A stretch of DNA of 64,000 nt from Crocinitomicaceae bacterium. GTDB lineage: Bacteria; Bacteroidota; Bacteroidia; Flavobacteriales_D; Crocinitomicaceae. The stretch spans positions 1 to 64,000 of the forward strand of contig JAQXCN010000045.1 in NCBI GenBank assembly GCA_029251865.1, read 5' to 3'. The notes under the pieces are model-generated. The model did not search any database, was not told the DNA's origin, and was given only the letters and a program-made list of their open reading frames with translations. Made by a program: the position numbers and the translations under genes. Shown here one piece after another: positions 281-58,369 of the stretch (position 1 is its first letter; each line of letters starts with the position of its first letter).

Positions 281-722
281 CGAATTCAAATTTGCCTGTA
301 ATCCAGTTTTTATCGAGTGAAGCTTTATGTTTTTTATAAAAGTTGATAGCTGGCTCGTTCCATTCTAGTACGAGCCATTCCATACGTTTGACTTTACTGT
401 TTTTCGCCCTATTTACGACTTTCTCAAACAACAGTCCTCCAATGCCTAACGTCCTTTTGTTTTCTTGGACATATAAGTCTTCGAGGTATAGGCATTTACC
501 TTTCCATGTGGAATAGGAAGTGTAGTACAAGGCAAAACCAATGATTCCTGAGGCGTCTTCAGCTACAAATGCGTTACAAATCTTTTCTTCAAATAAGTGG
601 TTTTCAAGATCTGCAACGGTATTTTCAACGGCATTTGGTTCCCTTTCATATTCGGCTAGCGCCTTTATAAGTCTCAATATGGAAGGAACATCTTCGCGGG
701 AAGCATCTCTTATTTGTATCAC
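264..722 (-). CDS. GNAT family N-acetyltransferase, diamine/SAT1-like
   Basis: 152 residues, predicted to move an acetyl group from acetyl-CoA to a small amine. The core resembles the spermidine/spermine N-acetyltransferase (SAT1-like) branch: IRDASREDVPSILRLIKALAEYE at the start, then the GFALYYTSYSTWKG and YLEDLYV strands, the acetyl-CoA loop KRTLGIGGLL (R-x-x-G-I-G), and WNEPAINFYKK near the end. The start is a GTG (720-722) whose last two bases begin the TGA stop of sprA, a 4-base overlap suggesting translational coupling. It is the last gene of the maeB-ruvA-sprA operon. The substrate cannot be told from sequence, and a role in secretion or motility is not implied by position alone. Confidence 0.85.
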   Translation of the reverse strand: MIQIRDASREDVPSILRLIKALAEYEREPNAVENTVADLENHLFEEKICNAFVAEDASGIIGFALYYTSYSTWKGKCLYLEDLYVQENKRTLGIGGLLFEKVVNRAKNSKVKRMEWLVLEWNEPAINFYKKHKASLDKNWITGKFEFGDLIK

Positions 723-3700
723 TGAACTCCGGCTAAATTAAATCTAATTTTAAAACCGGTATTTATATTCCCTGTAGGATATGACGTTTGAACTTTGGGC
801 GTATTCAAGTTTTGATCATAGTAGAACATAAGCGTTAAATTGTTCGTCAAATTATAATCTGCAGAGATTTTGATAGCGACTGTTTTTTGACCCGCAGTGG
901 CCTGATTCGTGTTTTCAACAATCTTGCGAATCACAGTTAGATTGTCTCTAAATGAGAAATCAAACTTGATATTTACATCACTAGACTTGATATTTCGGAA
1001 GGGTAATTTGACATCTTTTATTCGTGCTGCAGTTCCAACCACAATCTCTTCCGATAAGGACTCTGTGACTTGGTTGTTACTAAGTGCTAATGTAGCTTGC
1101 CTGTCTTTTTTATATTCAAATCTTGTTTGAAGTGTATGGCCTCCTATGATCCAGTTTGCATCAATACCGATAAGCGGAGAAAAACGCTCGCTGATCACAA
1201 CGTTTTGAATTTGCATATTCGGAATATAATTGTTGTCAATATCCAGAGCTGTTAAGTTTCCTTGGTTGTCTGATTCAGAATTTAAATTCGTCTGCATACC
1301 GTTTAATGAAATTGTTGAGCTGTATCCATGTCTTACAATAAAGGACTTTAGGAACTTCTTAGTCCATTTGTACTTTGTCAATCCGCTATAATTCACGGAC
1401 CAATTTGGTAGTGGAATACTTTGCATTGGATCGATATTCCTACTATTAACGGTTGCATCGTTAAATGCAGTCATGAACGCACCTAAAACAACATCTTGTT
1501 GGCTTCCAGAATAGCCACTGTAATAGCCACTTGTGCCTGTTAATGATGAGTTTGAGTTTTGACTACCAACAATCTGAGATACGGCAGTACGGTTATTTAA
1601 TAAATTATCAAATATGGAAGATTGGTATTGTGTGCCTTGTTTTATAAATGATGTCCCCAAAGTAATTGTAGAATAGGTAAGGGTAGAGGTTTGAAATTGA
1701 CTTTGTCCTTCAAAAGCCTCAGTACCTTCGTTCCAACGGTAAAATTCACCGGAGTTGTTGGAGTAGTTTCTATTCAAGTTTAAATCGATATTTACATCTT
1801 TGAAGGGTTCTAAGGTTGCGCGCATGGATAGATTTGCAGAATGTGTTGTTGCATATTGGGTATTAAGGTTTTCATTACGAACCAACCAATTGTTCTCAGT
1901 CGCTAAACTCGAAATATTATAGCCGTTGGCCCTACCAAAAACATCATATCCTTGCTGCCCAAATACAAACCCACTGAGTTTGGAGGTGGAATTATTCATG
2001 CCTAAGAATCTGGATTCTTCTGCAAAACCAGGAAGAATAGTCCCATCTGTCAAAGCATAAGTCCCTGAGATATTTCGGACGGTCATGATCATTCGTGCAA
2101 AGAAACCTAGAACTTTTGGCACCTTTCGTTTTGCTCTTTCTTCTTTTCGTGTCTTCTTTTTGTGCGCTCTATTCTTTTTCTTGTAGGCTTTAAGTTGCTC
2201 TTTGGTCATAGAGTCCAGTGGGATTTCTGGTTCTAAATCTTCAACAATAATCCACTCCCATTTTTTGTTTTCATCTGTGTCTTTATTCACGGATTGGCCA
2301 TCGGATGATTTGCTTCCAGGGCCACTTCTTGGATTAATTCTCCCTCTAGAGTTTCTGCCTTCCGATAATATTTTTTTGAAAAAGGGAACTTTGTTATAGA
2401 GATTCACGAAGTTCGCCTGCGTTGTCATATTTATATTTCGGCTATTTTGAATTGTATTCCCAAAGGCACTTTGACCTAGTGGAGCTCTAGACCAATTGTA
2501 ACCTCCGGTGTATTTTACATTGGCGTTAAGCCAATTGGTTAATGGGAATTTATTGAAAGGAACTTTATAGTTAATGGTTACGTTTTGATTGTATTGCATT
2601 GTACGACCTAAGGTTGTCATTTGCGAACGGATTGTATCAAGAAACTCGCGGTATCCTTCAGGATTAGAAATGCGGTCTACGCTATTGTTCCCTTCCTCGA
2701 AAATAGCCTGATTTCTTGCGCTAAATGTGGTTTTCAGATTTCGTGTAATGTCGTATCCAAGCTCATATTTTCGATTCCAATCAAAACGCTTTAAAAATAT
2801 AGGGTCAAATTCATAGTCAGGTACGAGATTATTTCTTACTTGGCGTTCATTGTAAATTCTCGAGTAATCATTCGTGAAAGAAATATTTTTTGGCATTAGG
2901 AAAAGGTTGAAGTCTTTAACCAACTTCAAGTATTTGTTCTTCTGTACGGGTTTCCATTTTTTAAAGGGTTGAAAAGGTTTTCCCTTAAAAGTGTAATTGT
3001 AATTGAGAGCTCCAGTCCATGTTTTAGTAAGGTCTTTTTTCGTATTAAAATCTCTTTGGAGATTTTCAGAGAATGCATAGCTTGCAGCCCAATTCGAAAT
3101 TCTCCAAAAATGATTTTTACTTCCTGCTTTCGCTTCCTTTCGAACATTGCTGAAGTTAAACGATTTTCTTTCGTTGAAATCTTGACCTAATTTTTTACGC
3201 GCTCTTCTCGTTGCATCATCATAGTCCGCTAATTTGATGTCTGGATTAAATGGATCATACTCGGGATTGACGAGGCCAAGTGAGTACCCATAAAAAAACG
3301 GTAAGGAGACACGGGCTTGTTTTCCAAAAAACTGACCGAGCTGTACTGTTGAATTTAGGTCAAATCCTATCTGTTCATTTCTCTGTCTGTCTTGGACACG
3401 GCTGTCTACACTCCCCCAATTAATGCCAGAGTAATTTCCTGAGGCATTAATATTCGCAAAGTCAGCTAGTTTCAATTGTAATTGTCCTACTGCTGCAGAA
3501 CCGCCTTCACTCACGAAGTCCGTAAGCCGCATTTCATTGACCCAAACGTTGACGCATTCTGCATCGCCATCATCTGGTAGCCAAATGTTATTGGGATCGT
3601 TTTGAAGGGGATTACGCACACCAATCATGATTGTTTTAAGTCCTTGTAGGTTTGGGCTTCCTTTTACCTTTATTCTTCTTTCATTATTTTTTGGATCCGT

Positions 3701-6700
3701 CTTAGCGTACTCCACGATGTATGAAATACCCGTACCACCTTCCTCAACAATCGCGTTTCGCTCTTTTTTTAAATTGATTAAATCATCGAAAACAATTTCT
3801 ATGTCATTGGTAGAAGGCCAAATGTTATCAGCCCCATTTTCATACCATTCTGAGACATCCATCGGAAGCTCATATTCATAATAATTATCAACAAAATCTG
3901 TACCTAAACGAACAAATAGGGTAAGCTCATGATCATCTAGCGTATTTTGAATAACTTCCTCAGCATGCACAAACATTTTTAGTTTTTTATACGTACGTAC
4001 GTCAAATTGAACGTTTCGGTATGCTGCGCGCGCATCACCATCTTGAAGGTTGCAAATTTCCAGCACCAGTGACTGCTCATTCATTTGACGCGCATATGGT
4101 TGTGAAGGATCGACTTCTCTCTGAATTCCTGGAGGGACGCTATAGTTTATAGGTTCTCTTTGTTCATTTTCTTGAATGTTAACAGCTCCAATGTTGAAGG
4201 TGGTTAGATTGGGGTCTGGCTGAATGCTCAATCCGGGCTGACTTAAGTCCTCATTAAAACGTCTCCACTCTCCTCGAATGAGCTCAAGTCTTGCAAATCG
4301 AACAACAACTTCTTCATCAAAATTCTTGAGGAACATTCTCATAAATCGAATCGATCGAAAATCCTGTATACCATTCACACGTTTTTCGTAATCAGTTATG
4401 GGCACTTTAAATTGATACCAGGTTTCATTTTTATTTCCGTTGGTATATACTTGCTTGTTGGTGATATAATTACTGCCTTCTTGCATGTCATTTCTTCTCA
4501 GACTTACCTTGTACTGGAAATAGCTTTCAGTTTCAGATAAGTTATTGTCTTGGTTAATATCTTCGATATCTGGCATGTTAGTGGCTTGTGTAGGATAGCC
4601 ATTTGCATTGATTGCTGAGGAGATTTCTGTGGTAGGGGAGTTGCCCTCCATGCCGTTATACCTTTTATATCGTTTTAGAATGTCTGCCTCTGCACTGTCA
4701 TAATCATCATCGAGATAGTAATTATAGTTGTCACCTGAAGGATCATTGATTAGTTGTTGCTTTATTTCAGCGGTCATGTTAGGGTGATTGTTAACCCATG
4801 AAACATAATTTTGAAAAGCGATGCTTTCTTCTGAGTTATCCCAGCCATCGAGGCCAACATCTTGATTGAGCCTTGAATTAGGGTCGTTATCAAATGCGTT
4901 CACAACAACTTGCTGTGTTGATACTCTAGCCCAATCGGTAGTGTCTATGTTATCATCAACTGAGACGCCTTGTGGAGGCAACCCATTTTCAAAACTTTTT
5001 CTCGAATCAGGTAAAACATCTTCAGAAATATTACCTAAATTGAAGTAGAGATCTCCTCCATTATGAAATGCGTTATTATCCACAGCCTCTGCGTCTTCGT
5101 TAAAAGGGTCTAGCACCCAGAATTGGATGAATTCAATATTAGCTACCTCAAAATCGTTCGTGGTTAGACCTCTCATAATGCCACCCCACCTTTCTTCTGG
5201 ATTTACAAATTGACCAATAGAATCAACCGTATTTGTTGTATCATAGTTATACATTCCCCGTTCTTTTGGATAATAAGCCAAGTCAAGCACAGGTAGATTT
5301 TGTATGCCGCCATATGGAATATCAACGAGCGGGAATATGTCATTTTGATTGACTTGGCGCATGCGACTATCACTTGTAATCGCACCACCATTCTCCTGAA
5401 TATGCTGGGGTGTTAAAGAAGTTCCTTGAAAGAAAACAGGATCAATTACATACCATGCTGTTCTCGCTCTATTAAATCCAGCACTTAGGTCCTTTTTTGT
5501 GGCTTCAGGAAATAAACTAGGCTGACCTTGGGGAATTGATGCCAGTCTCCAAGCGCTTACGTTTCTGAGGTCTATGGCACTTTGAGCCGCCTCGAAGTCG
5601 TCAATATAAGAGGTCCCTTCTTTTTCTATGGCTTTTGGTTGTCCCGGGATTAAATGCGCAAATTCTCCTGTGAAAGACAAAGTAGACATCTGTTTGGTTG
5701 AAATCACAGGTAAGAAATCTACTAGCTTTGTTAGAAATGGTATATCCGTTCTTAACGCGATATCTGCACCAATCACATTATTTTTAAACGGCTCGCTGCC
5801 GAAGTCAACTTTTTGTGTTACCGGTCGCTCCATCATTCGAACCCATGTTGCACCCAATTTTAAACGATCACTGAAGCGGTACTGGTACCTTCCCCCAACC
5901 ATGGATCGCGCCTGAAAGCCAAATACCGAGTTACTCTCAATAGAAATTTTTATTGGTGTATTAGATTCTAAAATACCCGTATTTAATATTTTTACTCGTC
6001 CAAAGGCGTAGTCTACTGTGTAATCTACACCTTCAATTAATCGTATACCGCCGGCAGTAACAGAAACTGATCCTTCTGGCACCGACATAACATTTAGTGG
6101 AATATCAGAGGTGATTGAGGACTGATACTCTCCTTTGAAAACAAATCTGTTTTTACTAGGTATTTGTTGTGCAGCTGTTTTTGTAGAATCATAGAGTTCG
6201 TAAAAAGCTATTTTATCTACTGTAATTTGAGGAATTCCTGCATCTGTAAGTTTATCTGCTAAAGTTTGACCGAAGGGTTCAACTGTGGAAAAGAAGATGC
6301 GACCATTTTTTTTGTTTATAGTTCCGCCATTATCAATTTTGTTGTTTACTTGGTTAAAAGGAGCAAAATCAAATACACCGTCGGAGAATGGTTGGTTATT
6401 TTGATTGATTTTATCCATATCAATTAAGGTGACAATTTGCTTTTTATCTACTCCATCAAAAGGAATAATAGGCAGCTCAACAGAGGTCTCAGGATTGTTA
6501 TATAATACATCAATTTTAAAGCCAAGTTGATCGACTTGATAGGCGCCTATGGAGTAAACATTTTTCATCATCAAGTCCCAAACTTTATTTTTTGGATTGG
6601 TGATGGTAGGTTTTAGAAGTTTTAAGATTAAGGCGTCTTGACCAGTTGATCCATCCGTTGAAAATTCACCAATTTGGTAAGTCTCTCCACGATACGTATA

Positions 6701-8071
6701 CTCGTAAGCAACAGATAAAATCTCATCATTATTTAGTGGACTATTTAAAGAGATATAACCTAACAGAGCATTGTAAGTGAAATCACTAGTTTCAAGACGG
6801 CGTGCATTTTCTAACTTTTCATATTCCACCGCTTGTCCAAATGGTCCAGGACTTGAGAATTGCGCATTTAATGCGCTTACTGAATTTGCAAAACCGCGAA
6901 TCGCAGGTTGATTTGAAGCCCAATTATACAGTCCGTTGGCTTCATTTTGTGGGATTTCGTTTACAGAGAATGAGCCAGGTTGTCCCTGACAATTGTCAGC
7001 TAATGCTTCTCCGAGATCAGAAAATGCAATAATATTTCTTGTGTTTTCAATACTGTTGTTTCTGTTTGTAACCCACACCTCAATCCGTGTGATATACATG
7101 GTCGAATTGACCACGGGTAATGTAGACATTGCCTCATCATAATGCTGCTGATGGTATAAATTTAAGAAGTAGTGTCTGTTCGCTTCGTAGTTGTCTGCCG
7201 TAAGTTCAAATTCCTGCACCTGAGCTTTACCACTAACATTAATTTCATTACGCTGACCCTTTGAAGAGGCAGCGATCAAGTCCACGGTCGCACGCCCGAA
7301 TTTTAATTGTGTCTTTGCACCAAAAAGCGTTTGAGAACCCTGAATTAGAGATGTAGGAAGTTCTAAAGCAACATTACCAAGTGCAATTTTCTGTAAGATT
7401 TGATCTTCATCCCCGGTATGTTCGAGTTTAGAAATATTTTCAAAGTCAAAAGAGGCTTGTGTATTATACTTTGCTCCGATTTTAAGTTTAGTTCCAATTT
7501 GTCCAACAATATCCATATTGATGTTTTGCTGAAAGTCAAAGCGCGTAACTCTTCTTTGACGCAATGGAAGCAATGGATTTTCATATCTACTGTGATTCGC
7601 GCCAAGAGAGAGCTCAATATTACCTTGTGGTTTAATTGTGATTTCATCTGAGCCAAAAAAGTTTTCGAAAGCTTTACTTCCTATTTTTATTGGCAGTTCG
7701 AAAGCACGATTCTCTTCGGTCTCCTCTTCAATGATTTCAAGCCAATCTTGAGACATAGACTTCTCTCTTTTGAATTCGAGATATTCGTCAAGCGTTAAGA
7801 ATGAGGGGTTTCTAAAATCTAATCCATTTCCTAGGGTTTCTGAAAAGATGAAGGTTCCAGTTAGTGGATCATAAGAGATGTTTTGTTCTAACGACGTTGG
7901 GTCTCCAAGATCAAAACTTTGGGTTTCAACTTGAAAAGGGTTTTGAGGGTTGTAAATCGGGAAAGGAAGTTGGATACTATCACCCTGACTGAAAGCCGAC
8001 AAGCTGATCAGGAGAAATAAGAGCAAAAACCCTAATTTCGTTGTCTTTCCGTATGTTTTACAAGTGTTCAA
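719..8071 (-). CDS. sprA: SprA, type IX secretion outer-membrane translocon
   Basis: 2450 residues, close to the roughly 2400 of known SprA/Sov proteins. SprA is the giant beta-barrel pore through which T9SS cargo crosses the outer membrane, and is needed for gliding motility in gliding species. A signal peptide covers about residues 1-28 (hydrophobic GFLLLFLLISLSAFS). The body has the family's repeating outer-membrane strands, the GVDYTVDYAFGRVKI type hairpins, and long YDFEA/DDYDSAE-like acidic loops. The only start ahead of the signal peptide that fits is TTG (8069-8071), one base after the ruvA stop; the frame closes shortly upstream. The order maeB-ruvA-sprA is a recurring Bacteroidota arrangement. 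Candidate cargo in this window: 15128-17536, 47364-49124 and 49362-51350. Confidence 0.96.
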   Translation of the reverse strand: MNTCKTYGKTTKLGFLLLFLLISLSAFSQGDSIQLPFPIYNPQNPFQVETQSFDLGDPTSLEQNISYDPLTGTFIFSETLGNGLDFRNPSFLTLDEYLEFKREKSMSQDWLEIIEEETEENRAFELPIKIGSKAFENFFGSDEITIKPQGNIELSLGANHSRYENPLLPLRQRRVTRFDFQQNINMDIVGQIGTKLKIGAKYNTQASFDFENISKLEHTGDEDQILQKIALGNVALELPTSLIQGSQTLFGAKTQLKFGRATVDLIAASSKGQRNEINVSGKAQVQEFELTADNYEANRHYFLNLYHQQHYDEAMSTLPVVNSTMYITRIEVWVTNRNNSIENTRNIIAFSDLGEALADNCQGQPGSFSVNEIPQNEANGLYNWASNQPAIRGFANSVSALNAQFSSPGPFGQAVEYEKLENARRLETSDFTYNALLGYISLNSPLNNDEILSVAYEYTYRGETYQIGEFSTDGSTGQDALILKLLKPTITNPKNKVWDLMMKNVYSIGAYQVDQLGFKIDVLYNNPETSVELPIIPFDGVDKKQIVTLIDMDKINQNNQPFSDGVFDFAPFNQVNNKIDNGGTINKKNGRIFFSTVEPFGQTLADKLTDAGIPQITVDKIAFYELYDSTKTAAQQIPSKNRFVFKGEYQSSITSDIPLNVMSVPEGSVSVTAGGIRLIEGVDYTVDYAFGRVKILNTGILESNTPIKISIESNSVFGFQARSMVGGRYQYRFSDRLKLGATWVRMMERPVTQKVDFGSEPFKNNVIGADIALRTDIPFLTKLVDFLPVISTKQMSTLSFTGEFAHLIPGQPKAIEKEGTSYIDDFEAAQSAIDLRNVSAWRLASIPQGQPSLFPEATKKDLSAGFNRARTAWYVIDPVFFQGTSLTPQHIQENGGAITSDSRMRQVNQNDIFPLVDIPYGGIQNLPVLDLAYYPKERGMYNYDTTNTVDSIGQFVNPEERWGGIMRGLTTNDFEVANIEFIQFWVLDPFNEDAEAVDNNAFHNGGDLYFNLGNISEDVLPDSRKSFENGLPPQGVSVDDNIDTTDWARVSTQQVVVNAFDNDPNSRLNQDVGLDGWDNSEESIAFQNYVSWVNNHPNMTAEIKQQLINDPSGDNYNYYLDDDYDSAEADILKRYKRYNGMEGNSPTTEISSAINANGYPTQATNMPDIEDINQDNNLSETESYFQYKVSLRRNDMQEGSNYITNKQVYTNGNKNETWYQFKVPITDYEKRVNGIQDFRSIRFMRMFLKNFDEEVVVRFARLELIRGEWRRFNEDLSQPGLSIQPDPNLTTFNIGAVNIQENEQREPINYSVPPGIQREVDPSQPYARQMNEQSLVLEICNLQDGDARAAYRNVQFDVRTYKKLKMFVHAEEVIQNTLDDHELTLFVRLGTDFVDNYYEYELPMDVSEWYENGADNIWPSTNDIEIVFDDLINLKKERNAIVEEGGTGISYIVEYAKTDPKNNERRIKVKGSPNLQGLKTIMIGVRNPLQNDPNNIWLPDDGDAECVNVWVNEMRLTDFVSEGGSAAVGQLQLKLADFANINASGNYSGINWGSVDSRVQDRQRNEQIGFDLNSTVQLGQFFGKQARVSLPFFYGYSLGLVNPEYDPFNPDIKLADYDDATRRARKKLGQDFNERKSFNFSNVRKEAKAGSKNHFWRISNWAASYAFSENLQRDFNTKKDLTKTWTGALNYNYTFKGKPFQPFKKWKPVQKNKYLKLVKDFNLFLMPKNISFTNDYSRIYNERQVRNNLVPDYEFDPIFLKRFDWNRKYELGYDITRNLKTTFSARNQAIFEEGNNSVDRISNPEGYREFLDTIRSQMTTLGRTMQYNQNVTINYKVPFNKFPLTNWLNANVKYTGGYNWSRAPLGQSAFGNTIQNSRNINMTTQANFVNLYNKVPFFKKILSEGRNSRGRINPRSGPGSKSSDGQSVNKDTDENKKWEWIIVEDLEPEIPLDSMTKEQLKAYKKKNRAHKKKTRKEERAKRKVPKVLGFFARMIMTVRNISGTYALTDGTILPGFAEESRFLGMNNSTSKLSGFVFGQQGYDVFGRANGYNISSLATENNWLVRNENLNTQYATTHSANLSMRATLEPFKDVNIDLNLNRNYSNNSGEFYRWNEGTEAFEGQSQFQTSTLTYSTITLGTSFIKQGTQYQSSIFDNLLNNRTAVSQIVGSQNSNSSLTGTSGYYSGYSGSQQDVVLGAFMTAFNDATVNSRNIDPMQSIPLPNWSVNYSGLTKYKWTKKFLKSFIVRHGYSSTISLNGMQTNLNSESDNQGNLTALDIDNNYIPNMQIQNVVISERFSPLIGIDANWIIGGHTLQTRFEYKKDRQATLALSNNQVTESLSEEIVVGTAARIKDVKLPFRNIKSSDVNIKFDFSFRDNLTVIRKIVENTNQATAGQKTVAIKISADYNLTNNLTLMFYYDQNLNTPKVQTSYPTGNINTGFKIRFNLAGVQ

Positions 8072-41844: not shown

Positions 41845-43500
41845 CTAGTCCTTTTGATTGATTGCTGTGGTTTTATCTTGAATCAATAAAGAAACACTTT
41901 TTTGAAGGGTTTCTAACTCCACTTTTAAATCTTGAAATTCCTCATTCTTTAATTTTAATGCTGCGTTTTCAAGTTCAAGTGCTTCTACTCTTTTAAGTAA
42001 AGCTTGTGTTGCAGATACATTCAGCATCGATATGGCCTGATAGTCAACAGTTCTAAAGTCGTTGACTTCTCTACCATAAACGAATACTTTACCTGTGTGA
42101 TTTTGATTCGTTTTAATTAAGTTCGCGGTAGCTGAAACTACCGTTGTGATCTCCTCCTTATTTTCAAAAATCAAACGAATACGCTCACCTGAACTTAAAT
42201 TGTTTTGAATCTGAATTATTCCTGCTTTACAGTCGGCCAGTTTATAAATGTCAGGAATGCAGTTCGTCGATTTTGAAACAGCCTGAGGGTAGACTTTTTC
42301 AAGCTGTTGCGCAATGGCCTTTTTTACTGGCTTTTCTCCATGAGAAGGGTCTATCATGTGATAATCTGTTACCTCTATTTCATTCAGCGTTGCAAGATCT
42401 TGTTTTGAATTTGAAAGCCCGTCAATATTTTTTATTCTCTCATCAGAAATCGCATTAAATTCTCCAGCAACAATGCGGTGTGTAGCGAAAATACTTGTAT
42501 TTAAGTTTGTGCCTGCTGCGGTACCTGTATTCGGTCCAGTCGCATAGTATGTAAAATTCCCAAAGGGATCGGAATAGTAGCCGTTTACATGAAGTAGCCC
42601 TTGTGAAGGCGTATTAGTATTGATCCCCACACGGCCATTTCTAACCACTAAATCTTGACCGTTAGTCGCATTCGTACCATCTGTTGTCGTAATAAAAACA
42701 GCATCGTATCCATTAAGTCTTATTCCGTCGACTGTCGGTTCATACATGAGGAAATTGTCCCCATCTATAGCGTCTTTAACTTTGTATTTGAAGGGGGAAT
42801 TTATGGAAATATCACCATTTGCAACCTCTAATTTAGTTCCAGGTAATGAGGTGCCTAATCCAATATTCCCACCTGCATTAAATAAATTATTGTTGTCTAC
42901 TACCCACGTTGTTCCATCCCAGAAAGTTGTATTTCCAACCAATGTACCATTTGGTAGAATGCCATCATCACCAGTTTCACCTTGAATTCCTTGTGGGCCA
43001 GTTTCACCTTGAATTCCTTGTGCGCCAGTTTCACCTTGAATTCCTTGTGCGCCAGTTTCACCTTGAATTCCTTGTTCACCCTGAACGCCCTGTGGACCGT
43101 TACCTGCTGTTTTAGCGTATAGGGCATAAGGTACACTCATAAGTTCTTGAGCGCCCATTGTTTCGTAATTCGACCCTCCATTTTCATCTACCGCTATTTC
43201 TAGATAAAATGGCCCATTACTCCAATCTACAAGCTCAAATGAACCACTAGTGACATTACCTTGACCGATAACGAGATTAACAAGTCCAAAAACATCTGTC
43301 GAAGCATCAAATGTTTCTTGGTAAACCATAGTGCCTCCAGCGGTATTTTGATAAAGGGTAATTTGAAGGCCAACGGCATTGTTCGATAGAACGTCACCCG
43401 TGTTGGTTCGAATAACAGCCTGATAATTTACGCCCTCAGGTGCTTGAGCAAATGAAAGTACGTGAATACAAACAAGGCAAATGATCAATAGATTTTTCAT
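41845..43500 (-). CDS. surface adhesin with collagen-like repeats and S74 (endosialidase chaperone) domain
   Basis: 551 residues from ATG 43498-43500, which begins a signal peptide (about 1-18); the frame is open upstream without support. N-terminal beta-rich region (APEGVNYQAVIRTNTGDVLSN) is common in Bacteroidota surface proteins. Then a collagen-like stretch (GPQGVQGEQGIQGETGAQG...), a fibre region, and a C-terminal intramolecular chaperone (peptidase S74) domain beginning ISDERIKNIDGL with IAQQLEKVYPQAV, followed by a coiled coil (VEALELENAALKLKNEE). S74 domains cut themselves off phage tail spikes and assist trimer folding. Here it is likely a trimeric surface fibre. No phage genes are near. 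Confidence 0.82.
   Translation of the reverse strand: MKNLLIICLVCIHVLSFAQAPEGVNYQAVIRTNTGDVLSNNAVGLQITLYQNTAGGTMVYQETFDASTDVFGLVNLVIGQGNVTSGSFELVDWSNGPFYLEIAVDENGGSNYETMGAQELMSVPYALYAKTAGNGPQGVQGEQGIQGETGAQGIQGETGAQGIQGETGPQGIQGETGDDGILPNGTLVGNTTFWDGTTWVVDNNNLFNAGGNIGLGTSLPGTKLEVANGDISINSPFKYKVKDAIDGDNFLMYEPTVDGIRLNGYDAVFITTTDGTNATNGQDLVVRNGRVGINTNTPSQGLLHVNGYYSDPFGNFTYYATGPNTGTAAGTNLNTSIFATHRIVAGEFNAISDERIKNIDGLSNSKQDLATLNEIEVTDYHMIDPSHGEKPVKKAIAQQLEKVYPQAVSKSTNCIPDIYKLADCKAGIIQIQNNLSSGERIRLIFENKEEITTVVSATANLIKTNQNHTGKVFVYGREVNDFRTVDYQAISMLNVSATQALLKRVEALELENAALKLKNEEFQDLKVELETLQKSVSLLIQDKTTAINQKD
42971..43078 (-). repeat. 27-bp tandem repeats coding collagen-like G-E-T-G-A-Q-G-I-Q units
   Basis: Four copies of a 27-base unit starting at 42971, 42998, 43025 and 43052, differing at only a few positions. 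Each codes nine residues (three Gly-x-y triplets). Near-identity of copies suggests recent duplication or gene conversion, so copy number may vary between strains. Confidence 0.9.
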
Positions 43501-43569
43501 TTTTAAACATTTAATGTGGTTGTGTAGCAATAAAGAGAGTGGTCAGTTTACCCTCGCCCATGACTAAAT

Positions 43570-47310: not shown

Positions 47311-47342
47311 GTGCAACTTTTAATACAATAAACTTGTCTATA
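47311..47342 (+). promoter_or_regulatory. ECF-like promoter shared with the paralogous downstream gene
   Basis: GTGCAACTTTT (47311-47321) and TTGTCTATA (47334-47342) with a 12-base spacer, matching exactly the two blocks upstream of the next gene. GCAACT to GTCT spacing is 17 bases, as in promoters of ECF sigma factors. Predicted start of transcription is about 15-20 bases before the GTG at 47364. A weaker alternative is TAAACTTG at 47329-47336, one mismatch from the housekeeping -7 box. Confidence 0.55.
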
Positions 47343-47363
47343 CGTTGTAAGATTAATATTTAA

Positions 47364-49124
47364 GTGAATAACAAAGTTAACATATCACCCTTTTTAAACA
47401 ACTTGTCAGCCCTGATGACATCAATTGTTTTGATGCTTTTTGTATTTGACGCAAAAGCCACTGTTTATACTTCAATTGCTGATGGCAACTACAATAATTG
47501 TGCAATTTGGGATGTTGGTTGCCCAAATAATACCATTCAAAATGGTGATACAGTAATCATTAATCATGTTATCAGTGCTTCTTCTTCAATGAATATAAAA
47601 GGAGTTCTTGAAATTAATCCTTCGGGCTCTTTTTCGAACACCAATACCATTGATGTTAATGCCTTGGGTGTTGTATCAAATGACGGTTACTTTTCGACTT
47701 TAGGTGAATTACACTTAGACGGTTATTTCTTCAACTCCTCGGTTTCAGCGATTCAAGATTTACATGTTGATGGATACGTGTGCAATACTGGGACGATTCA
47801 GGTTAGTGACGAAACCTTTATACACGGCGGTATCATTGAATGTAATGGAACGCTCAATACATGTGAATTAGACATGGATAATAATAACGCGTCTGAACCA
47901 GTCACAGGTTCGTCAAGCTCCTTTTTACAAGGTCAAGACATTTGTTGTAATGCAAACAGTTCAAATCCATTAGATGATTTATCGGCAGATTGGTTGATAG
48001 ACTCTTCGTCGGTATCTATTTGTGGACTTCCATTGATCCCAAACGCAGGAGACGATGCAAATCTTTCTATTTGTAATTCAGTTGATTCTGAAATAAACCT
48101 CAATGACCTTCTATCCTTGAACACCGGGGGGGTGTTCACGGAATTAACCTCTTCCGGTTCTTTTGACGCACTCACAGGTATTTTGAATGCTAATGGCTTG
48201 GCTTCCGGCAACTATGTTTTTGAATATACAGCTCAAGGTTACAATAACACCTCTGACGTTGCGGAATTCACAATTACAGTGAGCGCTGAATTATTTTCAG
48301 AAGAGACAATTGCTGTTTGTGAAAATGAAATCCCATTTGAATGGAATGGTACAACGGTTTCTGAATCAGGTTCAGTTTCAGTCATGTTATCGAGTGCTGT
48401 TTCTGGTTGTGATTCAACAGTAACTTTAAATTTAATTGTCAACGCCATTCCTACAAGCATGAATGATACTCTTGTCTGTGGCTCTCAACTTCCTTTTTCT
48501 TGGAATGGTTCGACAATTAGTGGTCCAGGTTCAGAAACAGTCACTTTAACAAGTTCTAATGGTTGTGATTCAGTTGCAGTCCTCAATGTTTCAATAGAAC
48601 AGCTTGAAGTCCCTGTGGTTGACTTTAGTGGTCCTGTCTCGTGTCCTAAAGATTTAGTAACGTTTTCCATTTTGAACGAAAATAGTGACGCAGTTTATGA
48701 GTGGAATGGTCCGAATGGTTTTGTTTCCTCAGAAATTTTTAATGAATTCGAACTTACCGAAGATCTCATGGGTACTTATGAAGTCAACTATTCCCTAAAT
48801 TCTTGTATCTCAGAAACAACTTTCATTGATCTCGAGATTGAAAACATTTTCGAATACAAAACCTTTAAGTTTCCAAATGTAATAACGGCAAACGGTGATG
48901 ATGTTAACGATAAAATTATCCTCGAAGATTTTCTTGGTTCTTGTACAGAATTTGAATTGACGATTAGAGACCGTTGGGGAAGTGAGGTTTTTCGACAAAA
49001 TAGAGGTGAAGAATCTTTCCAGGGATTATCTATTGATGGCACTGATTTGCCGGAAGGCACCTATTTCTACAGGTTGACTTTTGCCCAAGGCGATGTTTCT
49101 GGATTCATGCACATCATTCGCTAG
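47364..49124 (+). CDS. T9SS type B sorting-domain surface protein
   Basis: 586 residues from a GTG; a later ATG at 47415 is possible but the promoter position favours the GTG. Signal peptide ends near DAKA (about residue 32). The N-terminal region (VYTSIADGNYNNCAIWDVGCPN...) resembles a beta-helix-like adhesive stretch; two modules of roughly 45 residues follow, each with C......W.G and GCDSxVxLN (from CENEIPFEWNG and CGSQLPFSWNG). The C-terminus (about 505-586) is a gliding-motility-associated (CHU_C, type B) sorting domain: FPNVITANGDDVNDKI, IRDRWGSEVF, GTYFYRL. Predicted cargo of SprA, exported to the surface. Paralogous to the next gene. Confidence 0.88.
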   Translation: MNNKVNISPFLNNLSALMTSIVLMLFVFDAKATVYTSIADGNYNNCAIWDVGCPNNTIQNGDTVIINHVISASSSMNIKGVLEINPSGSFSNTNTIDVNALGVVSNDGYFSTLGELHLDGYFFNSSVSAIQDLHVDGYVCNTGTIQVSDETFIHGGIIECNGTLNTCELDMDNNNASEPVTGSSSSFLQGQDICCNANSSNPLDDLSADWLIDSSSVSICGLPLIPNAGDDANLSICNSVDSEINLNDLLSLNTGGVFTELTSSGSFDALTGILNANGLASGNYVFEYTAQGYNNTSDVAEFTITVSAELFSEETIAVCENEIPFEWNGTTVSESGSVSVMLSSAVSGCDSTVTLNLIVNAIPTSMNDTLVCGSQLPFSWNGSTISGPGSETVTLTSSNGCDSVAVLNVSIEQLEVPVVDFSGPVSCPKDLVTFSILNENSDAVYEWNGPNGFVSSEIFNEFELTEDLMGTYEVNYSLNSCISETTFIDLEIENIFEYKTFKFPNVITANGDDVNDKIILEDFLGSCTEFELTIRDRWGSEVFRQNRGEESFQGLSIDGTDLPEGTYFYRLTFAQGDVSGFMHIIR

Positions 49125-49286
49125 AACGTCTTCTAAATTTTTATTGTAAATCAATATTTTACTTGTAAGTCCCACAGGTATTAACACTATTCGAATTTTT
49201 TCTGTGCCATTAATCTAGATGAAAGAGTCTTCAATAACCTCTTGATTTTAAAATTAATTTCTGTAATGCCTTTTTTGCTTAATTTA

Positions 49287-49318
49287 GTGCAACTTTTTGT
49301 GTTTGGTTATTGTCTATA
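49287..49318 (+). promoter_or_regulatory. ECF-like promoter, second copy
   Basis: GTGCAACTTTT (49287-49297) and TTGTCTATA (49310-49318), identical in sequence and spacing to the copy at 47311-47342, while the spacer differs. Its location places transcription start downstream of the in-frame ATG at 49266, which argues against that start. Confidence 0.55.
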
Positions 49319-49361: not shown

Positions 49362-51350
49362 TTGAAAGGAAAGAATATTCCTACCATTCTTCTTGTTTTC
49401 TTGTTTTTTAATGGATTTTCTTCTTTGTATGCTCAAAATTCTGTTAGTTCAGAGGGTGTAGGTCAGAAATGGGTAAATTTCAATGATGCAGATGTCAGTG
49501 GCAATCAAATAACGATTGAGGCGATAATTAGACGTCCTTTTACAAATAACGGTAATATCGTGTCGAAACACGATGGTACTAATGATTGCAATTATCTGTT
49601 TAGACCCAATAGTTTTCAAATTTCAACAACTGACGGCTTTCAATTTGTTTTAAATCCTATAACACTTCCTAATAATGCCTGGTTCCACATCGCTGGTTCC
49701 TATGATGGTACTTCAATTAAATATTATGTCGACGGTTGTTTGGTCAACGAAGTGGCACATTCTGGAGACTTGATCACAAATAATTGGGATGCTGCCATTG
49801 GTAACCGTTCGAATTGGCCTAACGGACCTGAACATTTTAGAGGGAAAATAGACGAAGTTCGTATATGGAATGAGGCAAGAACCGAAAGTGAAATAAGATT
49901 AAATATAAACACGATACTTGATCCGGCTTCAGAAGCGCAACTCGTAGCTTATTATAAATTTGATGGTGATTACATAAATCAGCAAGGTAATGCAGCATTT
50001 AATGGTTCATATGTAGGGACTCCATCTTTTGATTTATCTCCTCCTGTATTTATTCCCTTTACAATTGTAACTATCGATCAAACTGATATATCTTGCTTCG
50101 GTTCAGAAGATGGATCAATATCTATTGTGGCTACAGGTAATAATGTTGAGTATTCTATCGACGGGGCTAGTTTTTCTTCAAGTCCAAATTTTGCAAATTT
50201 ACCAGCAGGAACCTATAATGTGCAGGTTCGCTCAGGCAATTGCGAAGAGACAGTAGAAGTAATATTAATAGAACCCGATCAAATCCCTATTCCCGATATT
50301 GTAGTAAACGCGCCAATCTGTTCGACAGAAGACTTGTCCTTGTTTACGTCTCCTGTGGCTAATGCCTCTTATTTTTGGAATGGCCCCAATGGTTTTACCT
50401 CTTTTGTGAATGATACAACGATCACTGATTTGGAATTAGTTGATTCTGGTATATATTCTATTTACTTGGAAGTTGATGGCTGTTACAGTGATACTACAAG
50501 TTCAGAAATAATAGTAAATGAAACTTATGATATTTTAATAGTTGATACGATTTGCGCTAATGAAACATTTAGTTTTGGCCCCGATGATCTAAATGAATCG
50601 GGAATTTACATTCAAAATTTACAATCAGCGGCAGGATGTGATTCCATAGTACAGCTTGAATTAATCGTCAATCCGTCCTATAGTTTCACTATAGATACAA
50701 GTTTATGTGAGGGAGAAACGATTGCGTTCGAAGGCGTCACAATGAGTTCAACTGGGACTTATCCTTTTAATCTATTCACGACATTGGGTTGTGATTCAAT
50801 AATCACTTATGAGTTAATTGTATATCCGATACCCGATGCACCTTCTGTTCTCTCCAATAGCCCACTCTCTTGTCCTGGTGATTTGTTTGAAGTCTCAACA
50901 GCCTCTGTTGCAGAAGGTCTATATGATTGGGTAGGGCCAAATAATTATTCTTTTGATGAATCGGATTTTTCCTTTGAGGCATATCCTGCCAATATGGGTA
51001 CTTACACTGTTTCAGTAACGGTCGATGGTTGTATTTCTCCAATAACTACTATAAATCTAGAAATTGTAAATATATACTCGTTTGAAGAGTCTGATTTACC
51101 AAATGTTTTTACCCCCAATGGAAATTCCGCTAATGAGGTTTTTGATTTGCAAGCCTATTTTAAGACTTGTGAAACCTATGAGGTCTTTTATTTTGACCGG
51201 TGGGGAAATGTGGTTTATCGACATACTCAGAATGAAACACCATTCTCGGGTAATGCATTCGATGGTTCTCAGCTGATGGATGGCGTTTACATGTATAAAA
51301 TTATTCTCGAAAATAGTGAGAAACAAGGGTATGTTCATCTCATTAGATAA
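49362..51350 (+). CDS. T9SS type B surface protein with LamG-like lectin domain
   Basis: 662 residues from a TTG at 49362, chosen because it gives a normal signal peptide (MKGKNIPTILLVFLFFNG...SLYAQ) and lies after the promoter; GTG 49326 or ATG 49266 are alternatives. Domains: LamG/concanavalin-like lectin (about 45-225: WVNFNDADVSGNQITIEAII, WFHIAGSYDGTSIKYYVDG, IDEVRIWNEARTESEI), a SprB-like repeat (TDISCFGSEDGSISI), PKD-like Ig stretches (YFWNGPNGFT), two C...GCDS modules, and a type B sorting domain (LPNVFTPNGNSANEVFDL, FDRWGNVVYRH, GVYMYKI). Predicted T9SS cargo that may bind glycans. Confidence 0.86.
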   Translation: MKGKNIPTILLVFLFFNGFSSLYAQNSVSSEGVGQKWVNFNDADVSGNQITIEAIIRRPFTNNGNIVSKHDGTNDCNYLFRPNSFQISTTDGFQFVLNPITLPNNAWFHIAGSYDGTSIKYYVDGCLVNEVAHSGDLITNNWDAAIGNRSNWPNGPEHFRGKIDEVRIWNEARTESEIRLNINTILDPASEAQLVAYYKFDGDYINQQGNAAFNGSYVGTPSFDLSPPVFIPFTIVTIDQTDISCFGSEDGSISIVATGNNVEYSIDGASFSSSPNFANLPAGTYNVQVRSGNCEETVEVILIEPDQIPIPDIVVNAPICSTEDLSLFTSPVANASYFWNGPNGFTSFVNDTTITDLELVDSGIYSIYLEVDGCYSDTTSSEIIVNETYDILIVDTICANETFSFGPDDLNESGIYIQNLQSAAGCDSIVQLELIVNPSYSFTIDTSLCEGETIAFEGVTMSSTGTYPFNLFTTLGCDSIITYELIVYPIPDAPSVLSNSPLSCPGDLFEVSTASVAEGLYDWVGPNNYSFDESDFSFEAYPANMGTYTVSVTVDGCISPITTINLEIVNIYSFEESDLPNVFTPNGNSANEVFDLQAYFKTCETYEVFYFDRWGNVVYRHTQNETPFSGNAFDGSQLMDGVYMYKIILENSEKQGYVHLIR

Positions 51351-54868: not shown

Positions 54869-54934
54869 TAAAAGCAATGGATTGTTGAAAATAGCGTTTT
54901 ACAGTTCAAGACCTTATATTGTTTGGGTAAATCA

Positions 54935-57900
54935 ATGATAAAAAACAGTTTTCTTTTTTTGCTTTGCTTGATGTCACAACTTCTTGTTGTTGCCCAAGAT
55001 GGTGGTTATCGGACTAAAAAACTATTAATTACTAAAGCCAAACGCATTGATACTTGTAGTATTTATCCAAATTCGTTTGAGGTATATGTGAACGACACTG
55101 TATTGCCTGACAATATGTACAGCCTTGATTACTCTTCAGCTTTGTTCACGCCAACTCAAAAAATTAATGACACCTTATCTTTCGCCTATCATGTCTTCCC
55201 TTTTGATTTATCAAAGACTTATAAATTAAGAGATAGCGCAAAAATATTTGATCAGACAGATGACAAAAGTGCCTTATTTAAAATTGAAAACATCTACTCT
55301 GTGGATGATGTTTTTGGAGGTAATGATTTGAATAAAAATGGTTCGATATCGCGGGGTGTATCTTTTGGTAACAATCAAGATCTTGGTATTAATTCCTCTT
55401 TGAATTTAGAGCTTGCCGGTAACATTGCGCCAGACCTGAAAATACTAGCCTCTGTATCCGATGCCAATATACCAATACAGCCAGAAGGGAATACGAATAA
55501 GCTTCAAGAATTTGATAAGGTATTTATTCAAGTCTATAATGACCGTTTAAAATTAATTGCTGGTGATTTTTGGTTGTCTAAACCGAAAGGGTATTTTATG
55601 AATTATCGTAAAAGAGCTCAAGGTTTAAGTATGAACTATAAATGGAATAGAGGTGAAGATAAATTTTGGAATATTCAATTGAGCGGGGCGCTTTCTAAGG
55701 GGAAGTTCAACCGACAAATCATTCAAGGAGTCGAATCAAACCAAGGACCTTATCGGCTTGTTGGTGCAGAAAATGAGCCGTTTATTATTGTATTATCAGG
55801 AACCGAGAAGATGTTCATAGATGGCCGCTTACTTCAGCGTGGTCAAGAGTATGATTACACCATTGATTACAACACCTCCGAGGTTATATTTACAGCACGA
55901 AATCTTATTACCAAAGACACGAGGATTGTCGCCGAATTTCAGTATTCTGATCAAAATTATGCACGTTCTTTAGTGCAACATTCACTAACCTATAATTCCA
56001 AAAAAATAGACTTTTGGTTTAATACTTATTCCGAGCAAGATGCTAAGAATCAACCTTTGCAACAAGATTTATCTATTGAACAAAGAGCATATTTAGCAGG
56101 GATTGGGGACGAACTTAGTTTGGCATCAGTTAGTTCAATTGACTCCGTAGGTTATTTTGAAAATCAAAATTTATATAAACTTGTGGATTCTTTAGGGTAT
56201 GATTCAGTTTTGGTTTTCAGTGTCAATCCCGATGCTGCCTTTTTTAGGGTGTTTTTTGAATACGTTGGTAATGGTAACGGAGATTATGTACTAGAGAATT
56301 ATAATGCGCTCGGAAAGGTTTTTAAATGGGTGGCTCCTCAGTCAGGTCTTTCCCAAGGAGATTATCGCGCCTCAAGAACGATTATCACTCCAAAAAGACA
56401 GCAGATGCTCACAAGTGGTTTAAAATGGAACTACGACGCGAACAGTTTTCTAGAGTCTGAATGGGCTTTGAGTAACTTCGATATAAATACTTATTCTAGT
56501 TTATCTGCAGAAGATAATGTTGGTTATTCAAACCGAACCAGATGGAACAATACTTCGTATTTTGGCAAGCCTGATTCAGTAAGTTTATGGTCTTTAAGGT
56601 CTAAGGCGGAATTCGAGTACCTATCTACCAGCTTTTCTCCTATTCAGCAGTATAGAGCCGTTGAGTTTGATCGTGATTGGAATACGCGTTTTAAGGGTTA
56701 TGTTGGGCAACAGATACTGGGTACGCTCGGCACGAAGCTTAGACATAAGGAATACGGTGTTGTAGATATAGATGCGCAACATTTTTCTATAGGCTCAGAT
56801 TATAGCGGTCAAAGGGCTTTTACTAAAGGTTCATGGAAACAAAAAGGCTGGGATGCCAACTGGGATGGAAGTTTTTTACAAGCTAGAGGTGTTTCAAGTA
56901 GTACTTTTTTAAGGCATAGATTAGCGCTGTCTAAAAAAGTTGGGCCATTCAGAATTGGTTATAAAGATGACCATGAGCGCAATAGATTTCAGGACACTTT
57001 ACTTACTACTCCAAGTTATGAATTTTTTGATTATCAGTTTTATGTTGGTAATTCCGATACCAGTGCGATGGATTACAAATTGTTTTATCGAGAAAGATAT
57101 GACCGTCGATTGATTAATTCTCAATTTCTAAGAACGGCAAAAGCAAAAACAACAGGGGCTGAATTCAATCTCAATGGTATAAAAAATCAAAAGCTAACCT
57201 TATTATCTGGTTACCGAACGTTAGAGGTTCTAGATACCGTTTTAATGAATCAAAGTCCAGAGAATTCATTGATAGGACGGCTAGAATATAACTTTAAAGC
57301 TTGGAAGAATGCTATACAATGGTCTACTTTTTATGAAATAGGATCTGGATTGGAACAGAAACGCGAGTTTTTGTATATACAAGTTAATGATGGTCAAGGG
57401 GTGTATACATGGATTGATTACAACTCAGACGGAATAAAGGATTTAAATGAGTTTGAGCTTTCTCAATTTATAGATCAGGCAAATTACATTCGTGTATTTG
57501 TGCCAAGTAACAGTTACGTAACTACCTATTTCAATGAGTTTAATCAGACCATATTTTTGAGGCCTGAAAGAGTTTGGTCTCGTAAAAAAGGGGTGCTAAG
57601 GTTTTTGTCCAAATTCTCAGATCAGGCACGGTTTAGAATAAATAAAAAATCAAATGCTTTTCTAGATGGCACCGTTTTTAATCCACTATCTAATAGAATT
57701 GCCGATACAAACCTTATATCAACGGCGGCTTTTGTGAGGAATTCCTTGTTTTTCAATCGTACTGGCTCTATTTTCGGCGCGCGTTACGTCTTTCAAAAAA
57801 ACCAGACAAAAACACTTCTAGCATCAGGGTTCGATTCAAGACTTTCATCTTATCATGAAATGAATGCAAGATGGAATGTTACACCAAAGTTTTCAATTGT

Positions 57901-58369
57901 TATGACCGCACAAGATGGTATTAAAAATGCATTAGCTGATTATACAACGGGGAGAAATTATGCGATAGATTTCAAATGGCTTAAGACGTCGCTAAGTTAT
58001 CAACCGAGTACTAACTTTAGGATAACACTTGACTCTAGGATTGCGTCGAAAAATAATATGATTCAAATTGCGGGCGAAACATGTACAATCAAGGACCTTG
58101 GTTCAACTTTTAAGTACAATCAGACGGATAAGGGCAGCCTTCAAGGCTCCTTTAAGCTGTTGAAAATTGATTTTATAGGTATTGAAAATTCAGCTGTTGG
58201 TTTTGAAATGCTTGAGGCTTTAAGGCCAGGAATGAATTATACGTGGAATATTGGCTATCAAAAAACAGTTTCAAAGAATCTGCAGTTAACCATTCAATAT
58301 TTGGGCCGAAAGTCTGAGAATACTAGAATGATACATTCTGGAGGAATGGAATTACGGGCTTTTTTTTAA
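54935..58369 (+). CDS. large SprA-like outer-membrane barrel protein of unknown function
   Basis: 1144 residues from ATG 54935 (a TTG at 54923 is possible); signal peptide about 1-20 (MIKNSFLFLLCLMSQLLVVA). Beyond this there is no catalytic motif. The N-terminal 300 residues hold features also in SprA: GSISRGVSFGNNQDLGINSSLNLELAGNIAPDLKI, and the hairpin MFIDGRLLQRGQEYDYTIDYNTSEVIF, matching SprA's GIRLIEGVDYTVDYAFGRVKI. The remaining 800 residues are short alternating strands with aromatic ends, finishing RMIHSGGMELRAFF, like a large outer-membrane barrel. An EF-hand-like IDYNSDGIKDLNEFEL lies near 830. No plug domain of a TonB receptor was seen. It lies between hemD and a fatty-acid hydroxylase, with no obvious link to either. 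Confidence 0.75.
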   Translation: MIKNSFLFLLCLMSQLLVVAQDGGYRTKKLLITKAKRIDTCSIYPNSFEVYVNDTVLPDNMYSLDYSSALFTPTQKINDTLSFAYHVFPFDLSKTYKLRDSAKIFDQTDDKSALFKIENIYSVDDVFGGNDLNKNGSISRGVSFGNNQDLGINSSLNLELAGNIAPDLKILASVSDANIPIQPEGNTNKLQEFDKVFIQVYNDRLKLIAGDFWLSKPKGYFMNYRKRAQGLSMNYKWNRGEDKFWNIQLSGALSKGKFNRQIIQGVESNQGPYRLVGAENEPFIIVLSGTEKMFIDGRLLQRGQEYDYTIDYNTSEVIFTARNLITKDTRIVAEFQYSDQNYARSLVQHSLTYNSKKIDFWFNTYSEQDAKNQPLQQDLSIEQRAYLAGIGDELSLASVSSIDSVGYFENQNLYKLVDSLGYDSVLVFSVNPDAAFFRVFFEYVGNGNGDYVLENYNALGKVFKWVAPQSGLSQGDYRASRTIITPKRQQMLTSGLKWNYDANSFLESEWALSNFDINTYSSLSAEDNVGYSNRTRWNNTSYFGKPDSVSLWSLRSKAEFEYLSTSFSPIQQYRAVEFDRDWNTRFKGYVGQQILGTLGTKLRHKEYGVVDIDAQHFSIGSDYSGQRAFTKGSWKQKGWDANWDGSFLQARGVSSSTFLRHRLALSKKVGPFRIGYKDDHERNRFQDTLLTTPSYEFFDYQFYVGNSDTSAMDYKLFYRERYDRRLINSQFLRTAKAKTTGAEFNLNGIKNQKLTLLSGYRTLEVLDTVLMNQSPENSLIGRLEYNFKAWKNAIQWSTFYEIGSGLEQKREFLYIQVNDGQGVYTWIDYNSDGIKDLNEFELSQFIDQANYIRVFVPSNSYVTTYFNEFNQTIFLRPERVWSRKKGVLRFLSKFSDQARFRINKKSNAFLDGTVFNPLSNRIADTNLISTAAFVRNSLFFNRTGSIFGARYVFQKNQTKTLLASGFDSRLSSYHEMNARWNVTPKFSIVMTAQDGIKNALADYTTGRNYAIDFKWLKTSLSYQPSTNFRITLDSRIASKNNMIQIAGETCTIKDLGSTFKYNQTDKGSLQGSFKLLKIDFIGIENSAVGFEMLEALRPGMNYTWNIGYQKTVSKNLQLTIQYLGRKSENTRMIHSGGMELRAFF

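Follow-up and report, generated by a model that had tools for sequence, protein, structure and literature searches.

The two pairs of sequence blocks that precede two tandem genes in the window (the whole 64,000-nt stretch of Crocinitomicaceae DNA analysed here) can be read as the −35 (TGCAACTTTT) and −10 (GTCT[A/T]) elements of one ECF sigma factor that is conserved in the Crocinitomicaceae, here the protein encoded on contig C10, which would drive its own operon and a small regulon. This reading is given a probability of about 0.82. The motif, its positions and conservation, the operon and the protein domains are all observed in the sequences, and promoter activity and sigma specificity are predicted from them. 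That the window blocks are promoters of ECF type, as the original prediction proposed, is strongly supported, and one candidate sigma factor could be traced through its own conserved promoter.

The arrangement GTGCAACTTTT-N12-TTGTCTATA is found directly 5' of both genes with the coordinates and spacing first reported for it, and the 12 spacer bases differ between the copies. Predicted promoter 1 (47311..47342, + strand) consists of GTGCAACTTTT at 47311-47321 and TTGTCTATA at 47334-47342, with the −35 TGCAACTTTT at 47312-47321 and the −10 GTCTA at 47336-47340, and its GTC stands 25 nt from the GTG start of gene 1. Predicted promoter 2 (49287..49318, + strand) has GTGCAACTTTT at 49287-49297 and TTGTCTATA at 49310-49318, with the −35 TGCAACTTTT at 49288-49297 and the −10 GTCTA at 49312-49316, and here the GTC lies 47 nt from the likely TTG start of gene 2 at 49362. 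The open frame of gene 2 begins at 49242, but position 49362 is the likely start because promoter 2 sits within the longer frame and a signal peptide opens the shorter one. A spacing of 17 had been given for the two elements, which is correct as a count between hexamers, but the distance from GCAAC to GTC is 18 in both promoters, and it is this value that is invariant.

Both genes were proposed to encode cargo of the type IX secretion system (T9SS) of type B, and the domain searches agree, both products exceeding the Pfam CHU_C cut-off and having N-termini that read like signal peptides. Gene 1 (47364..49124, + strand) specifies a secreted protein of 586 aa with a C-terminal CHU_C domain (Pfam, 62.3 bits, cut-off 27), while gene 2 (49362..51350, + strand) specifies Laminin_G_3 (Pfam), an SprB repeat and a CHU_C type B domain. 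The T9SS type B model TIGR04131 is passed by gene 2 only (40.6 bits, compared with 31.7 for gene 1, cut-off 35). Two other regions of the window may be mentioned: a gene at 41845-43530 (− strand) carries collagen-like repeats and a weak match to Peptidase_S74 (endosialidase chaperone), and an open frame at 54923-58369 (+ strand), slightly 3' of hemA/hemC-type genes, is 1148 aa long with no Pfam match.

Random occurrence of the motif pair, which would have spoken against a promoter function, is not what the genome contains. From base composition, 4e-6 matches of 20 bases of this kind would be expected between the two upstream regions. The form GCAACT-N15-TTGTCTA occurs exactly twice in the window, and TGCAAC-N18-GTC also exactly twice, at the two promoters, where 0.29 occurrences are expected and 5 of 100 shuffled sequences reach two. 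The strict form, GCAACTTT-N13/14-TGTCTA, is present at these two places only in the whole genome of 2.38 Mb. A loose version allowing two mismatches gave no excess in this genome (23 sites vs 34 in the backward control) and was not counted as evidence. What carries the argument is therefore the strict motif, together with its placement in front of genes and its retention in related genomes. A scan for sigma-70-type promoters gave no excess. Promoter 1 is kept in the gene 1 orthologs of three relatives (G026, G019 and G058) while the spacer and flanks have diverged, and a fourth (G017) has GCAACTATT...GTGTC at the equivalent position. Promoter 2 is kept in the gene 2 orthologs of G017 and G051, again with drifted spacer and flanks. 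Just 3' of the −10 element of promoter 1, at 47343-47350, the sequence GTTG[TA]A is also conserved in orthologs, unlike the spacer.

Looser scans of the genome placed the next-best matches before an ECF gene (C10), a gene for a T9SS type A protein (C37) and a tandem series that spans two contigs (C73/C29). The first of these genes, at C10:811-1341 (− strand, outside the window), encodes a candidate ECF sigma factor of 177 aa with a Sigma70_r2 domain (65.4 bits) and has the motif directly upstream. Its 98%-identical ortholog in G017 matches both Sigma70_r2 (62.3 bits) and Sigma70_r4_2 (55.7 bits) above the cut-offs. Orthologs were found throughout the genus, and the first 30 fetched all have TGCAAC...GTC shortly 5' of the start. 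A family-wide set of 80 orthologs, picked by protein only and including members of Fluviicola, Lishizhenia, Brumimicrobium and Crocinitomix, shows GCAAC-N18-GTC upstream in 77/80, the spacer being 18 in 77/77, and TGCAAC-N17/18-GTC within 110 nt upstream in 76/80, compared with 0/3109 control windows. Outside the genus the −35 element contains TGCAACC at many sites, and the strict form GCAACTTTN13-14TGTCTA returned almost nothing there. Self-regulation is common among ECF genes and, taken with the conserved motif before this one, it ties the motif to the C10 sigma factor, a connection that can be regarded as a strong inference. It could be argued that several ECF paralogs use the motif and that the regulon does not belong to the C10 protein alone, given that the genome has 14 sigma-like genes and that GTC-type −10 elements are common among ECF promoters. 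This is unlikely, since none of the remaining 13 has the motif upstream, and since the −35, the −10 and the spacer are all conserved before C10-type ECF genes across two families.

The tandem series is a predicted small-RNA array of five units (C73:33990-34204 and C29:1-560; loci L214 and L213), each with a motif promoter in which the spacer is 18 (5/5). The ends of the two contigs have 71 identical bases in common, the assembly having broken inside the small-RNA repeat. The array is placed between a gene for an OmpR-type regulator and one for a phosphodiesterase, and at least seven relatives retain it at this position. Each unit is made up of the promoter, a conserved unpaired stretch of ~25-45 nt and an intrinsic terminator, the stem of which shows compensatory, both-sided changes at four pairs. 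An Rfam search of the array, ECF and target loci gave no family at the gathering score. Perfect complements of the small-RNA core, GATAAGAGTWAA, were sought in seven genomes and proved to be mostly the small-RNA genes themselves; the five other matches do not recur near a start codon from genome to genome, and for this reason no target is proposed. The array also bears on whether the blocks are bound by a conventional transcription factor, for example a response regulator, rather than being sigma promoters. The block TGCAACTTTT is longer than a −35 element usually is, and the array adjoins response-regulator genes, but the two blocks stand at a fixed 18-nt distance in a single orientation, at a set distance to start codons and with a GTC-type −10, the motif precedes the ECF gene in 76/80 cases, and in the small-RNA units a terminator follows after ~60 nt, so that the start of transcription is put immediately 3' of the GTC block. 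Binding sites of that kind are considered very improbable.

Across 61 genomes of the genus, the strict motif occurs at 145 sites, compared with 19 in the backward control, these counts including orthologs and hence sites that are not independent. Thirty-five of the 145 lie 13-15 nt before the ECF gene, and another 24 precede genes with a complete type B domain, at 8-34 nt from the start; several further type B targets are cut by contig ends. The genus targets also include lipoproteins, small-RNA arrays and a family of small secreted proteins, 120-130 aa in length, with 22 cases. One representative had no match in Pfam or NCBIfam. Members of this family (L148, L181, L170 and ~20 others) end in ..KILVVKSKNVLSLEM.., start a short distance 3' of the motif and are usually preceded by TGCAACTTTTCAAC. 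In 11 cases among the genus genomes the motif stands at a constant distance of ~107 nt before the start of a gene for a LuxR-type regulator with a GerE domain (L149, L127, L140, L146, L156, L161, L163, L166, L188, L196 and L199), and this long leader may contain an additional element.

Genus-wide, three start-proximal classes together hold 54 protein targets, of which 24 are type B genes. Set against ~30 CHU_C genes per genome, this share is far above chance (nominal P 2e-30, a value that assumes ~2200 genes and ignores orthology), and the enrichment for sorting-domain proteins that the original prediction proposed as a check is present at the level of the genus. The regulon takes a subset of type B genes only, as this genome has ~30 CHU_C genes and the motif is found on just two of them. 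The C37 site precedes a gene for a type A protein (GEVED and Por_Secre_tail domains). In a blind scan of the order, extending to other genera and a second family, matches were found before orthologs of the ECF gene with partners bearing a C-terminal domain (CTD), and before type B genes. A possible weak target is at C28:1392, where GCAAC-N18-GTCTA, preceded by A instead of T, stands before a choice-of-anchor-L-like gene. Sites at C11:4541, C9:51708 and C43:699 are inside genes and were judged to be chance occurrences.

The ECF operon has a second gene, which is predicted, from its position and architecture, to encode an anti-sigma factor. Its product carries a CHU_C domain in 77/79 members (TIGR04131, 40.3 bits, cut-off 35) and a single transmembrane helix near residue 50 in 75/79, followed by a disordered tether with a median of 138 aa. 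The structure model has helices at 6-16 and 24-33, the transmembrane helix near 48-66, disorder to residue 213 and a confidently modelled C-terminal domain. In fold searches this domain resembles PorZ, PorU and translocon-bound T9SS substrates, at modest E-values and together with other Ig-like folds. No Pfam or NCBIfam model matches the N-terminal part, and a profile search against PDB sequences gave nothing. In two assemblies the contig ends within the CHU_C part of the gene (C10:1-167, and the end of C36 in G041).

The predicted anti-sigma factors differ from type B cargo in two respects. A signal peptide or N-terminal hydrophobic run was seen in 0/93, and the cargo-type last strand, G[FYH]x[HETQ][LIV], in 1/93 compared with 27/32 cargo domains. 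Because the domain ends unlike that of cargo, its engagement with the T9SS is uncertain. These same two features, along with the fact that Ig-like folds match many proteins, favour the view that the CHU_C domain is an Ig-like periplasmic sensor only, with no T9SS contact, which would be compatible with the ECF regulon. Its probability is put a little short of even; on the other side, the domain passes curated type B cut-offs, it is kept in 77/79 members, and the regulon itself includes type B cargo.

With a T9SS-linked anti-sigma factor, the mechanism would most likely be as follows, the anti-sigma function, the signal and the role of the small RNAs all being predictions. The C10 sigma factor would drive its own operon, including the gene for the predicted membrane-bound anti-sigma factor, as well as part of the type B cargo, here represented by the two genes of the window, a single gene for type A cargo and the five small-RNA genes. 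The anti-sigma factor would place its helices in the cytoplasm and, beyond the single transmembrane helix, extend a tether of ~140 residues, able to span the periplasm, to the type B-like domain at its C-terminus, which could contact T9SS components or compete with cargo for them. If secretion or the outer surface were disturbed, the sigma factor would be released, selected surface proteins would be renewed and the small RNAs made. The part of this scheme in which the T9SS is sensed is offered tentatively and is judged less likely than not. It can be speculated, with equally limited confidence, that the modified type B domain is a hook at the far end of its long tether and docks on the T9SS; the ECF factor would then be switched directly by whether secretion sites are free or blocked. 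If true, this would be a one-step sensor of secretion traffic, working without a two-component system, and its output would be new cargo together with a surge of the tandem small RNAs.

How the production of surface proteins is matched to T9SS capacity is an open question outside Porphyromonas gingivalis. With a conserved pair of sigma and predicted anti-sigma factors, the latter ending in a T9SS sorting-type domain, and a regulon that includes T9SS cargo, the question comes within reach of experiment in cultured Fluviicola, Crocinitomix, Brumimicrobium or Lishizhenia. The present analysis also supplies a precise ECF promoter sequence for a family that had none in the literature found, together with a set of small RNAs placed under it. 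The literature search, the coverage of which excluded subscription journals, returned no paper on an anti-sigma factor ending in CHU_C.

Sigma-E of Escherichia coli is a self-regulated ECF factor with an anti-sigma factor, envelope targets and small RNAs, and in outline its regulon is like the one proposed here. Its promoter and anti-sigma factor are unrelated, and the five-copy tandem small-RNA array is a feature of the present system.

The original prediction had linked the promoters to SigP, which works with PorX and PorY in P. gingivalis, and this part was not supported. SigP is a T9SS-tied ECF factor, in a signal path that has the CTD-bearing PorA upstream (PMC4800418, PMC8265659, PMC7712824), and it is said to control its own gene (PMC7712824). 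However, the published SigP target motif, 5'-C(T)AAA(G/C/T)A(T)A(C)T(A/G)A-3' (PMC4800418), differs from TGCAACTTTT-N-GTCTA, the conserved motif here. SigP acts on genes of the T9SS machinery (porT, porV, porP; PMC4800418), whereas the classified genus targets, part of the targets being annotated, comprise cargo, small RNAs and regulators with no machinery gene seen; in the window, the outer-membrane translocon gene sprA (719..8071, − strand; Pfam SprA_N, 571.7 bits) is without the motif. The SigP system is under two-component control, and a CTD-bearing operon partner, such as C10-type ECF genes have in the predicted anti-sigma factor itself, is not described for SigP in the cited literature. 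Ownership of these promoters by a SigP-like factor with PorX/PorY is accordingly judged highly unlikely.

The nearest match is provided by the SM6 promoters of Flavobacterium psychrophilum, which share the ECF-type −10 box and belong to a regulon in which a pair of ECF and anti-sigma factors is accompanied by T9SS-related genes and by Rfp11, a putative regulatory RNA (PMC9723704). The selected SM6 targets given there are genes of the T9SS machinery (GldN, PorU and a PG0189 homolog) and of Band-7 proteins, unlike the targets here, and the text consulted describes neither a −35 block resembling TGCAACTTTT nor a CTD on the anti-sigma factor (PMC9723704). For the anti-sigma factor, the closest parallel in architecture, as distinct from homology to Dma1, is with the dual membrane-spanning anti-sigma (Dma) proteins of Bacteroides thetaiotaomicron, which likewise combine an anti-sigma domain, a transmembrane helix and a long disordered tether beside an ECF factor; Dma proteins end in a beta-barrel (PMC13088901), and the predicted anti-sigma factor of the Crocinitomicaceae ends instead in a T9SS type B-like CHU_C domain.
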